From: an uncultured Lachnospiraceae bacterium
GTDB taxonomy: Bacteria > Bacillota > Clostridia > Lachnospirales > Lachnospiraceae
NCBI GenBank assembly: GCA_947564645.1
Contig: CANOCU010000037.1
Location: 1 to 37,391 of the forward strand
Reading direction: 5' to 3'
DNA length: 37,391 nt
Shown here: piece by piece, positions 21,540 to 37,391 of the stretch
How the letters are laid out: each line of letters opens with the position of its first letter
How positions within the stretch are numbered: the stretch's first letter is position 1
The notes under the pieces: generated by a model
The model's input: only the letters and a program-made list of their open reading frames with translations
Databases searched by the model: none
What the model was told of the DNA's origin: nothing
Position numbers and translations under genes: made by a program

Positions 21540-22565
21540 ATGGATTATAAGTCAGCGGGAGTTGATATTGAGGCTGGGTACCAGTCGGTAGAATTGTTGA
21601 AGGAGCATGTCAAAGGGACGATGCGGCCGGAAGTGCTGGGAGGCCTCGGCGGCTTTTCGGGTGCCTTTTGTCTGGATAAGATCAAGGAGATGGAGCACCC
21701 GGTGCTGTTGTCCGGCACGGACGGCGTGGGGACGAAGATCAAGCTGGCGTTTCTGATGGATAAACATGACACGGTGGGCATCGACTGTGTGGCCATGTGT
21801 GTCAACGATGTGGTGTGCGCCGGCGGGGAGCCGCTGTTCTTCCTGGATTATATCGCCTGCGGCAAGAATTATCCGGAGAAGATCGCCACGATCGTGGGCG
21901 GTGTGGCCGAGGGCTGTAAGCAGGCCGGCGCGGCGCTCGTGGGCGGTGAGACGGCGGAGCACCCGGGCCTGATGCCGGAGGAAGAGTACGATCTGGCCGG
22001 CTTTGCGGTGGGTGTGGTGGATCAGAAGGATCTGATCACGGGAGAGCAGATCAAACCCGGTGACGCCCTGATCGGCATTGCGTCTTCCGGTGTTCACAGC
22101 AACGGTTTTTCCCTGATCCGCAAGGTGTTCGAGATGACGAGGGAGAGTCTGGATACATACTATGAAGAGTTGGGAGCGACTCTGGGGGAGACGCTTCTGA
22201 TACCTACGAGGATCTATGTGAAGGCATTAAAGGCCGTGCGCGATGCGGGTGTGACCATCAAGGGGTGCAGCCACATCACCGGCGGCGGATTCTATGAGAA
22301 TATCCCGCGGATGCTGCCGGCGGGGACGATGGCGGCAGTACAGAAGGACAGCTATCCGGTGCCGCCGATCTTCAGGCTTCTGCAGCAGAAGGGCGGCCTG
22401 GAAGAGAAGATGATGTATAACACGTACAATATGGGTCTGGGCATGGTGCTGGCAGTAGAGCAGGCGGATGTACAAAGCGCGGTAAGCGCGCTGCAAGGGG
22501 CCGGTGAACAGGCTTATCTGATCGGGGAAGTGACGGCAGGCAGCGAAGGGGTTGTGATACAATAA
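21540..22565 (+). CDS. purM: Phosphoribosylformylglycinamidine cyclo-ligase (AIR synthetase)
   Basis: PurM uses ATP to close FGAM into AIR. The 341-residue sequence shows the family hallmarks [67 protein letters not shown] and [15 protein letters not shown]. Length is normal. It follows purE by about 64 bases and its TAA overlaps the purN ATG by one base (TAATG), indicating coupled translation. Confidence 0.97.
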
Positions 22566-23191
22566 TGCTTAAGACAGTGGTGTGTGTGTCCGGCGGGGGC
22601 ACCAATTTACAGGCGATCCTGGACGGGATAGCACAGGGCGCGATCCGGAATGTGCAGATCGTGCGGGTGATCAGCAATAACAGGAAGGCGTATGCCTTGG
22701 AGCGGGCCGCTTTGGCAAGGATCGATGCGGTCTGTGTGTCGCCCCGGGACTATGAGGACAGAGAACGGTTCAACGAGGCGTTTTTACAGAAGGTGGAAGA
22801 GGCAGATCCGGATCTGATCGTGCTGGCGGGGTTCCTGGTGGTGATACCGCCGCAGCTGATCAGGCGGTATGAGAACCGGATCATCAATATCCACCCGTCT
22901 CTGATCCCCTCTTTCTGTGGTAAGGGATATTATGGACTTAAGGTGCATGAGGCGGCGCTTGCAAGAGGCGTTAAGGTGACCGGGGCCACGGTACACTTCG
23001 TGGATGAGGGGACGGACACAGGCCCTATCCTGATGCAGAAGGCTGTGGCCGTTATGGACGGGGACACGCCGCAGAGCCTGCAGAGACGGGTCATGGAAGA
23101 GGCGGAATGGGTGATCCTGCCCAGATGTCTTGATCTGATTGCGACCGGCAGGGTGACGGTGACGGACGGGCAGGCGCATATTGCGGAGTAG
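22565..23191 (+). CDS. purN: Phosphoribosylglycinamide formyltransferase
   Basis: PurN formylates GAR with 10-formyl-tetrahydrofolate. Motifs seen are SGGGTNLQAIL near the start, LAGFLVVIPPQLI, the catalytic INIHPSLIPSF, and TVHFVDEGTDTGPIL. The 208-residue length is typical. It overlaps purM by one base. It is followed by an unusual 187-base structured junction before purD. Confidence 0.97.
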   Translation: MLKTVVCVSGGGTNLQAILDGIAQGAIRNVQIVRVISNNRKAYALERAALARIDAVCVSPRDYEDRERFNEAFLQKVEEADPDLIVLAGFLVVIPPQLIRRYENRIINIHPSLIPSFCGKGYYGLKVHEAALARGVKVTGATVHFVDEGTDTGPILMQKAVAVMDGDTPQSLQRRVMEEAEWVILPRCLDLIATGRVTVTDGQAHIAE

Positions 23192-23213
23192 AAGACGCCT
23201 GACAGAAAGGCAG

Positions 23214-23383
23214 GTACGAGGAGGCAAGTATGAAAAGAGAATACCTACAGGTAGCTCTGCGCACTTGCTGCGCTGAGCGTACACGCGCCATGCAGCTTGT
23301 CTGCGTGTGTGCATGCACTTCATATTTGCACCGTACTTTTCATGGGAATTTGTGTCGGGAAGATATGGAGGTGCAAATATGAA
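23214..23383 (+). promoter_or_regulatory. Palindromic purD leader with alternative pairings
   Basis: Segment M (23319-23336) can pair with segment L (GTACG 23214-23218 and GCAAGTATGAA 23224-23234; 16 bp, one wobble, internal loop holding AGGAG). M can instead pair perfectly over 14 bp with segment R (GGTGCAAATATGAA, 23370-23383), which carries part of the purD ribosome site and its ATG. L and R resemble each other. Between L and M lie further hairpins, such as GCTC-T-GCGC with GCGC-T-GAGC and ACACGC with GCGTGT. Only one of L-M and M-R can exist at a time. Regulation is inferred from geometry. Confidence 0.6.
23230..23382 (+). CDS. Candidate 50-residue leader ORF overlapping purD
   Basis: ATG 23230 is preceded by AGGAGG (23219-23224) and opens 50 codons ending at TGA 23380-23382. 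That stop overlaps the purD ATG in an ATGA arrangement. The product begins MKREYLQVALRTCCAERTRA and is Cys- and Arg-rich, matching no family I know. Most of its sequence is fixed by palindromes, so the peptide itself may be unimportant. Ribosome passage would melt the stem that covers the purD start. It may instead be a chance frame through a repeat element. Confidence 0.4.
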   Translation: MKREYLQVALRTCCAERTRAMQLVCVCACTSYLHRTFHGNLCREDMEVQI

Positions 23384-24662
23384 AGTTCTGATTGTAGGAA
23401 GCGGCGGCAGGGAACATGCGATCGCAGCCAGCGTGTTAAAGAGCGCGCGGGTGGAGAAGATCTACTGCGCACCGGGCAATGCGGGGATCGGGCAGATCGC
23501 GGAGTGCGTTCCCATCGGCGCTATGGAATTTGAGAAGCTTGTGGCCTTTGCGAAGGAGCAGGAGATCGACCTGACCATCGTGGGGATGGATGATCCGCTG
23601 GTGGGCGGCCTGGTGGATGTGATGGAGGAAGCCGGGCTTCGCGTCTTCGGACCAAGGAAGAACGCGGCGATCCTGGAGGGAAGCAAGGCTTTCTCCAAGG
23701 ATCTGATGAAGAAGTATCATATCCCGACGGCGGCTTACGAGAATTTCGACGATCCGAAGAAGGCACTTGCCTATCTGGAGACGGCGAAGATGCCGGTGGT
23801 ACTTAAGGCCGACGGTCTTGCGCTCGGAAAGGGCGTGCTGATCTGCAATACGCTTGAGGAAGCGCGGGAAGGCGTTAAGACCATTATGGAAGATAAGAAA
23901 TTCGGCTCGGCCGGTAACCGGATGGTCATCGAGGAGTTTATGACGGGCCGTGAAGTCTCCGTGCTTTCTTTTGTGGACGGGAAGACGATCAGGATCATGT
24001 CCTCGGCCCAGGATCACAAGCGGGCGCTGGACGGCGACCAGGGACTCAACACGGGCGGTATGGGCACCTTTTCGCCCAGTCCTTTCTATACGCAGGAGGT
24101 GGATGCGTTCTGCCGGAAGTATATCTATCAGGCGACGGTGGATGCCATGGCAGCCGAGGGAAGACCATTTAAAGGGGTGATCTTCTTCGGACTGATGCTG
24201 ACGCCGGAGGGCCCTAAGGTGCTTGAGTACAATGCCAGATTCGGAGATCCGGAGGCGCAGGTAGTGCTGCCGCGGATGAAGAACGACATGATCGAGGTGG
24301 CGGAGGCCTGTATCGACGGGAGGCTTGACCAGATCGACCTGCAGTTTGAGGACAATGCCGCGGTGTGCGTGGTGCTGGCGTCTAAGGGATATCCGGTCTC
24401 TTATGAGAAAGGGTTCGTCATCAGTGGGCTGGAACGGTTCGAGAAAGCGGAAGGGTATTACTGCTTCCATGCGGGAACGAAGCAGACTGGGGACGGCATC
24501 GTCACGAACGGCGGCCGGGTGCTTGGCATTACCGCCAAGGGCGCAGACTTAAAAGAAGCGAGAGCCAATGCCTACAAGGCTGCAGAGTGGGTGTCGTTTG
24601 ACAATCGGTATATGCGGTCGGATATCGGAAAAGCGATCGATGAGGTTCCGGTTTCGGAATAA
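23379..24662 (+). CDS. purD: Phosphoribosylamine-glycine ligase
   Basis: PurD joins phosphoribosylamine and glycine with ATP. ATG 23379 opens with the invariant MKVLIVGSGGREHAI and follows GGAGGTG (23367-23373); the longer upstream reading is rejected. ATP-grasp features include KADGLALGKGV, EEFMTGREVSVLSFVDGKT, QDHKRALDGDQGLNTGGMG and LEYNARFGDPEAQVVLPR. The 427 residues are full length. It is separated from purN by a structured leader that can cover its ribosome site. Confidence 0.97.
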   Translation: MKVLIVGSGGREHAIAASVLKSARVEKIYCAPGNAGIGQIAECVPIGAMEFEKLVAFAKEQEIDLTIVGMDDPLVGGLVDVMEEAGLRVFGPRKNAAILEGSKAFSKDLMKKYHIPTAAYENFDDPKKALAYLETAKMPVVLKADGLALGKGVLICNTLEEAREGVKTIMEDKKFGSAGNRMVIEEFMTGREVSVLSFVDGKTIRIMSSAQDHKRALDGDQGLNTGGMGTFSPSPFYTQEVDAFCRKYIYQATVDAMAAEGRPFKGVIFFGLMLTPEGPKVLEYNARFGDPEAQVVLPRMKNDMIEVAEACIDGRLDQIDLQFEDNAAVCVVLASKGYPVSYEKGFVISGLERFEKAEGYYCFHAGTKQTGDGIVTNGGRVLGITAKGADLKEARANAYKAAEWVSFDNRYMRSDIGKAIDEVPVSE

Positions 24663-36482: not shown

Positions 36483-36724
36483 CGAAGGGCACGCTGCGCA
36501 AATTGCTCTCTTGTGTCGGCTTCGTCGAATGAATTTTCTAAATATTCCGACAGGGTAATCGCATGTGGACGCAACCGCCCTTTACTCGCCATCCGGGCTC
36601 GGAACGGGCTTTTGCGGACATCCATGCCCGCAAATTGCTGATGGTGTGCGGAATATTAAGAAAATCTCAATCTCCTGCGCATGACGACTGCGTGAGCAAT
36701 TTGCGCAGCGTGCCCGGACGTTCG
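36483..36724. repeat. Complex palindromic element B between convergent genes
   Basis: A perfect 22-bp inverted repeat (36487-36508 with 36694-36715; ends GGGCACGCTGCGC) is extended by CGAA (36483-36486) with TTCG (36721-36724). Inside, an AT-rich stem pairs about 36534-36549 with 36649-36664 (AATATTCCG with CGGAATATT). Deeper still is a GC-rich arm (ACGCAA near 36569 with TTGCGG near 36611). No open frame is convincing. It separates the ABC exporter and the minus-strand lipoprotein gene and may act as a two-way terminator or a mobile element. Confidence 0.75.
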
Positions 36725-37340: not shown

Positions 37341-37391
37341 CAGGGGCAGTAGGAATCGAACCCACATCGATGGTTTTGGAGACCACTGTTC
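37341..37391 (-). tRNA. tRNA-Trp (CCA anticodon), 3' part, cut by the window end
   Basis: Read on the minus strand, the anticodon stem GTGGT/ACCAT encloses loop CTCCAAA with anticodon CCA, which decodes tryptophan. The T arm is GTGGG-TTCGATT-CCTAC and the acceptor strand TGCCCCT with discriminator G. This closely follows the Firmicutes tRNA-Trp I remember. The terminal CCA is not encoded (the DNA reads TTA). The D arm and 5' acceptor strand lie beyond the window. Confidence 0.93.

Follow-up and report, generated by a model that had tools for sequence, protein, structure and literature searches.

Mobile DNA usually avoids genes or breaks them. Palindromic non-autonomous elements derived from IS200/IS605 have no inverted repeats, and they are characterized by hairpin ends and a short target motif. 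Several described systems combine small dispersed repeats or mobile units with open frames. According to the available parts of two reviews, Rickettsia palindromic elements (RPE) are small, dispersed, palindromic repeats with an open frame, which are tolerated in protein genes (PMC10969869, PMC2229807). ERIC/RU-1, RU-2 and other enterobacterial MITEs measure 100–200 bp, are rich in hairpins, carry open frames and have no transposase, as far as the accessible text describes them (PMC2759123, PMC2229807). In integrons, ORF-11 and ORF-17 of attI1 and the short ORFs of attC are recombination-site ORFs that couple the translation of the next gene and relieve a hairpin barrier (available sections of PMC8876359). 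Finally, termination-reinitiation at ATGA is established for operons, where stop and start overlap by 4 nt and translation of the upstream gene opens structure over the next start (accessible part of PMC6728339).

The window analysed here, a stretch of 37,391 nt from an uncultured Lachnospiraceae bacterium, contains directly before purD one copy of a dispersed repeat of about 150 bp (23227–23381). Within the accessible parts of the literature, RPE and the enterobacterial MITEs with ORFs are the nearest repeats to it, and the integron attI1/attC ORFs are the nearest mobile coupling device. Like RPE, it is small, dispersed and palindromic, with an open frame allowing insertion, but RPE, as far as their available descriptions go, are read in frame inside the protein, whereas this repeat is located at the start codon, leaves the protein without extra residues and brings an SD and a start codon as well as a distinct leader ORF; the copies compared with empty sites were located at start codons or gene ends, and an in-frame intragenic insertion of the RPE type was not found among them. 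Size, hairpins, open frame and the absence of a transposase are shared with ERIC and the enterobacterial MITEs in the text available, but ERIC has terminal inverted repeats and ORFs fused to other ORFs, and the same text describes neither start-codon targeting nor a supplied SD. The short ORFs of integrons and the leader of the repeat both precede the next gene at a hairpin barrier; in the accessible account, integrons keep cassettes and integrase at one platform, whereas the repeat has its ORF inside a stand-alone dispersed unit at many native genes. The layout of an ATGA coupling unit was likewise found, with a leader ORF ending in the next start codon and a hairpin over that start; what differs from operon coupling as outlined in the available text is that a mobile-looking unit can break up a native ATGA and leave a new one at either end. 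The repeat also resembles IS200/IS605-derived elements in the traits named above, but no matching transposase or ends were identified. In the open literature, as far as its text was available, we found no repeat bringing its own SD and start codon to dispersed native start codons, which does not prove that none exists.

The purN-purD junction

The features of the junction, all on the plus strand, are as follows.

22565–23191, +, purN, the upstream neighbour, named from its position and similarity across relatives
23220–23232, +, left ribosome site GGAGG (23220–23224) with ATG (23230–23232), which now start the leader ORF
23227–23381, +, repeat copy, profile positions 2–153 (152.7 bits in nhmmer with a profile built from 28 full copies)
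23230–23382, +, leader ORF of 50 codons ending in ATGA (from the ORF list and phase analysis)
23254–23278, +, hairpin 1, GCTC-T-GCGC/GCGC-T-GAGC, nearly invariant, its core common to another repeat family
23285–23312, +, hairpin 2, variable in length, with compensatory changes (helices 3 and 4)
23322–23332, +, 5' arm of the right-end hairpin (helix 5), which reaches 23319 at purD
23353–23365, +, small hairpin TGTC/GATA immediately 5' of the right SD (helix 6, 90.5% of cells paired)
23367–23381, +, right-end SD GGAGG (23367–23371) with ATG (23379–23381), supplied by the repeat and now the start signals of purD
23370–23380, +, 3' arm of the right-end hairpin, which reaches 23383 at purD
23379–24662, +, purD, phosphoribosylamine-glycine ligase (Pfam GARS_N from residue 1)

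Judged from the strong left SDs of the gene-start copies described below, we regard the left GGAGG and ATG as probable start signals of the host side.

The original prediction for this region was a translation-dependent switch in front of purD, and the pairings on which it was built were recovered. Segment 23319–23332 (TTCATATTTGCACC) is the perfect 14-nt reverse complement of 23370–23383, with a duplex energy of −19.3 kcal/mol, and 23214–23234 can pair at −18.2 kcal/mol with this internal segment plus the adjoining 3' stretch, though in an interrupted and bulged helix. With one internal segment in common and energies this close, the two pairings are mutually exclusive and nearly equal, as had been claimed. 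The 50-codon ORF running into purD (ATG at 23379) through an ATGA overlap was confirmed as well. The fold of the whole region gave a z-score of −2.15 against shuffled sequences, 8 of 200 of which folded equally well; single-sequence structure at the purD leader is thus moderate at most, being weak and not decisive. A search of Rfam with the purD leader region returned no match at the gathering level, and the matches below the cut-off were to microRNA and lncRNA families only.

A dispersed repeat family

BLAST of 23192–23383 against the genome of origin yielded at least 36 places at E<1e-3 and at least 51 at E<=10; these counts include the query and some places that are two pieces of one copy, the weak places include hairpin arms matching the opposite strand, and the numbers are lower bounds, 40 of 62 candidates having been scored. 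The eight next best copies in this genome were 79–95% identical. The window itself contained no second copy, all remaining nhmmer matches being at chance level (E 0.13 and above). The search of relatives gave matches in 20 of 98 genomes, and a consensus query matched 23 of the 77 genomes examined within the genus; the own genome is counted in both figures. The copy numbers are again lower bounds: the genus-wide search scored no more than 11 candidates per genome and the family-wide search two where shown, and in genome G023, 40 of 94 candidates were scored. The family-wide search of 397 genomes gave four with a match, namely the own genome and single genomes from three other genera; of these, G297 had full copies and the other two short pieces. 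An exact 26-mer of hairpin 1 occurred in 87 stretches of the genome collection, labelled Lachnospiraceae, Butyrivibrio, 'Clostridia bacterium' or 'uncultured bacterium'. This hairpin core, the sole pattern tried, was absent from viral contigs, and carriage by viruses thus found no support.

Relatives in which purN adjoins purD without any trace of the element had been named beforehand as an outcome that would speak against a purD leader. Among 30 purN-purD loci fetched from 60 genomes, one of which is the window, the 29 others had no detectable copy, and within the 260 nt 5' of purD the profile matched only the copy of the window at E<=10. We regard the repeat before purD as recent or private. 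The junction of genome G051 (locus L184) contains a stretch that by eye looks like a decayed right end and was not reported by the profile even at E<=10.

Repeat anatomy and covariation

Over about 150 bp, 28 full copies could be aligned. They start with the left end (A)AGTATG-AAAAG, followed by the nearly invariant hairpin 1 and by hairpin 2 of variable length; 3' of the latter are the internal segment ATACTTGCACC-GTA-CTTTTCATGGGAATTTGTGTC and then the right end GACATGGAGGTGCAAGTATG(A). A direct (AAG)TATG is present at both ends of the repeat. Being short, multicopy, dispersed and devoid of a transposase gene, the repeat is MITE-like in these traits, but it has no terminal inverted repeats: its two ends, AAGTATGAAAAG and GGTGCAAGTATG, show no inverted match, and a direct TATG is common to both.

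Of the 54 distinct full copies, 48 were aligned for an analysis of covariation. In the right-end hairpin, 96.4% of cells were paired, and double changes were present at 3 of 11 pairs (20 cells), including those of a GGTGC-to-GGGCAC subfamily; hairpin 2 also had double changes. Over the entire structure, the covariation score (0.133 vs. 0.093 in shuffled alignments) and the number of cells with double changes (50 vs. 14) were above all 500 shuffles, whereas the number of pairs with double changes (10 vs. 7.5) was reached by 43 of the 500 and the number of pair types (38 vs. 38.7) by 381. We conclude from these sequence comparisons that the right-end hairpin covaries across the family. The predicted hairpin over the start region is therefore borne out by the full-length copies, and the compensatory changes that had been looked for exist in the repeat family.

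The upstream half of the predicted switch did not hold up. Its element-internal version, the pairing ATGAAAAG/CTTTTCAT, is poorly kept: depending on the pair, up to 13 of 46 copies cannot form it, and two-sided changes occur at just one of eight pairs (three cells), with almost only one-sided changes elsewhere, so that we rejected a conserved left/internal switch. Because the longer upstream pairing uses flank sequence that varies between insertions, it is specific to the purD locus and not a conserved part of the repeat.

A different repeat at L096:4963-4988 and at similar loci (Butyrivibrio sp. LC3010, Reindeer_1_mag_64, RUI497) contains the same hairpin 1 core of about 30 bp (CAGCTCTGCGCACTTGCTGCGCTGAGCGT); this repeat has what appear to be terminal inverted repeats (GTTACTGTTCA...TGAACAGTAAC), and its flanks show short duplications. 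Pieces consisting of hairpins 1 and 2 but lacking the right end were seen at homologous sites in two genome pairs (L262/L263 and L033/L036), where the outer stem of hairpin 1 is changed on both sides relative to the repeat.

Insertion at native start codons

At repeat-free homologous sites, the start codon of the gene is located at the insertion point. At a coaD-like locus, for instance, a relative reads GGGAGAATATT-ATGAAAGC, and the filled site reads GGGAGATTATT-ATGAAAAG...GGAGGTGCAAGT-ATGAAAGC. A relative with a gene start at the homologous place was found for 10 of 14 insertions of the own genome, the other four flank pairs (L041, L053, L056, L066) providing no usable homologous junction. 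For three more insertions (L178, L011, L010), gapless empty sites were available in relatives (L178 vs. G034: 96% identity, 0 gaps), with one ATG as opposed to two when filled. The native junction is in these cases an in-frame ATGA stop/start overlap with the insertion exactly at the native start codon, and in the filled sites an ATGA stands at each end, the leader that separates the two having 46, 48 or 50 codons. By these comparisons, the repeat is placed as an insertion at native start codons. The repeated TATG of the filled sites fits an origin from the target, from a duplication or from the element alike, and the copy at L005 shows extra duplicated letters. The dus locus of relative G009 cannot count as cleanly empty: a stretch at about 1659–1698 of L217 (minus strand) matched profile positions 101–139 with E 0.0015 in a lax profile search, and this stretch before dus, where the own genome has a full copy, is a probable decayed right end.

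A profile search of the fetched loci gave 142 distinct matches. Of these, 59 are full copies, 43 have the right end only and 16 the left end only; the other 24 are middle pieces, among them many that belong to the other repeat family with hairpin 1 in common. A start codon at the right end (within 3 nt) was present in 86 of the 102 copies bearing a right end, and in 56 of these 102, among which same-locus copies in sister genomes are counted separately, an ORF of >=60 codons began at the start codon of the repeat itself or no more than 3 nt away. Such an ORF was opened by 33% of 3837 control TATG sites, which makes for a weak control, as one third of sites do so anyway in gene-dense DNA. Pfam was searched with 30 of the 54 distinct downstream ORFs; 28 of the proteins matched, and the first domain started within 35 residues of the protein start in 24 of them. 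The matches include GARS_N (1–100), Maf (2–191), GatB (7–290), a CoaD-like nucleotidyltransferase (5–134), ATP-cone (1–91) with NRDD, Dus, an MnmA-type HUP domain, a TilS-type PP-loop protein, ILVD and ABC proteins. We read the downstream genes as coding for PurD, GatB, a CoaD-like protein, Dus, MnmA and NrdD, the gene names beyond the Pfam names being our interpretation.

No ORF of >=60 codons was begun by 32 of the 59 full copies. At some copies off gene starts, the left TGA is the stop codon of the upstream gene; such insertions made up 12 of 54, compared to 11% of 488 control TATGA sites, a slight enrichment. Right-only pieces were located at gene starts in 18 of 21 cases when they lacked the 5' hairpin arm and in 11 of 22 when they had it. 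This fits a decay that would keep the right end as the ribosome site of the gene, and it implies that coupling would not be needed in every case. At four loci (L003, L142, L152, L293), the apparent right end of another copy lies directly on the left of the repeat. In the window, 23214–23229 with the ribosome site before the leader (CGAGGAGGCAAGT) also looks like the right end of the repeat and is without counterpart in the purD leaders of relatives, in which no match to 23216–23229 was found; possibly it was left behind by a previous insertion.

The leader frame

Full copies at gene starts differed from the others in the phase of the leader. Of the 27 full gene-start copies, 18 had a leader whose end fell precisely on ATGA and nine did not, vs. 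5 of 22 other full copies with such an ending, and the left-to-right ATG phase was 2 in 21 of 27 vs. 10 of 22; the remaining 10 of the 59 full copies had no usable codon pair and were left out. The ATGA-ending leaders of gene-start copies had seven lengths between 137 and 164 nt, all of which are 2 mod 3. After collapsing copies of the same locus, which was done in the Fisher tests only, the proportions were 17/25 vs. 4/16 for the ATGA ending (p=0.011) and 20/25 vs. 7/16 for phase 2 (p=0.023), p-values that are optimistic, as is the one for the SD below, because the copies are related by descent and their independence is overstated. The leader frame contained 0.19 stops per copy, compared to 2.37 and 1.63 in the other two frames, while the leader peptide is unconserved, its left half being read in two frames in different subfamilies. 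The left SD had a median of −8.6 kcal/mol in 25 gene-start copies vs. −1.8 in 23 others (p=7e-8), and its strength in gene-start copies only is as expected if this SD is the host's own.

Proposed explanation and alternatives

We consider it quite probable that a non-autonomous mobile repeat inserted at the start codon of purD and is translationally transparent there through termination-reinitiation. The sequences show the repeat family, its insertion at native start codons, the SD and ATG that it supplies and its open, phased leader; translational coupling, opening of the hairpin and past mobility with an enzyme for it are what we infer. A short repeat of this kind would land on the start codon of a gene; the SD and ATG of the host would stay on the left and start a leader of about 46–55 codons through the repeat (50 at purD), and the right end would bring a strong SD, a start codon and the ATGA context that makes the leader stop overlap the gene start. 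Ribosomes from the host site would translate the leader, thereby opening the right-end hairpin over the new start, terminate at ATGA and then reinitiate on the gene. The right-end SD could help or act alone, and new ribosomes may use it. As a consequence of leader coupling and the supplied SD and ATG, an insertion would be nearly neutral even at important genes or operon ATGA overlaps. In silico, the purD AUG was unpaired in 1% of the free fold and in 82% or 86% with a ribosome footprint centred at 23312 or 23336, but in only 10% with the footprint at 23324 and in 0% at 23348. For the family (24 copies, one of them without a value), a simulated footprint on the 5' arm shifted the median start-codon accessibility from 0.27 to 0.36, which is a modest effect.

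Much of this pattern could also arise from a small repeat of the usual kind, which would insert wherever an (A)AGTATGA motif occurs and persist only where it is harmless, i.e. at start codons, gene ends and intergenic sites. Its right end would merely happen to contain SD and ATG, the downstream gene would be translated from this SD, and the leader ORF would be incidental. The many full copies that begin no long ORF are in line with such passive survival, as are the copies whose left TGA gives the upstream gene its stop and the fragments at gene starts without leader and 5' arm, for which SD and ATG can suffice. It accounts less well for phase and a stop-free leader being kept more before genes than elsewhere, and for a frame that stays open although its left half is read differently across subfamilies, and we hold this alternative to be somewhat less likely than not. 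Very improbable, by comparison, is an attenuator-like purD leader in which the internal segment picks either the upstream start site or that of purD, as in the original prediction. Its basis is the near-equality of the duplex energies in the window copy, against which stand the 29 relatives lacking a detectable copy, the occurrence of copies before many unrelated genes, the unconserved flank sequence serving as upstream partner and the absence of an Rfam match above the cut-off; a purD riboswitch or attenuator was rejected on the junctions and the Rfam result. Of the regulatory leader as first proposed, the leader ORF placed for ATGA coupling and the hairpin over the start have stood, whereas its specificity for purD has not.

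Returning to the transparent insertion of a mobile repeat, a wider reading is that it represents a class of translation-adapted mobile elements, an idea that we see as evenly poised. The attachment motif of such elements would mimic a translation start and hence target start codons and operon ATGA sites, the phased leader and SD-ATG would keep the invaded gene translated and coupled to its old signals, and the right end would be kept as a ribosome site after decay. A gene is most sensitive at its start codon, and this is the place that the repeat apparently occupies and where it would be tolerated by bringing a translation start and a coupling ORF. If true, this would be one route to the origin and spread of new 5' leaders, small ORFs and ribosome sites, and the copies, with their empty and decayed versions, would represent a natural insertion series for testing termination-reinitiation.

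Mobility

Searches by pairing left with right ends and by shared flanks revealed no autonomous element with the ends of the repeat among the fetched loci. One candidate origin is a relic of an IS200/IS605-type (HUH Y1) element, with hairpins at single-stranded ends and insertion 3' of a short TATG target that is repeated at the right end, without target duplication. The missing terminal inverted repeats, the subterminal hairpins and the same short motif at both ends would agree with this origin. Of the 11 carrier genomes searched, 5 contain Y1 transposase genes, and an IS of this type in G023 has TGAAT at both ends. We nevertheless consider it unlikely, given that a Y1 gene was found neither in the own genome (a draft, 91% complete) nor in five other carriers, that no autonomous element with such ends was present among the loci fetched, and that the L005 copy has its extra duplicated letters. 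An IS110 guide-RNA element was rejected because the own genome has no IS110 (DEDD) transposase, which was over the cut-off in four of eight carriers searched. The IS200-like element of G023, seen at L246 and L250, has in its TGAAT a short direct end motif, as does the repeat.

Other features of the window

Two further elements were recorded on the minus strand near the end of the window, a TwoAYGGAY RNA (RF01731) at 36517–36682 with 105.3 bits and a partial tRNA at 37341–37391, which is truncated by the window end.
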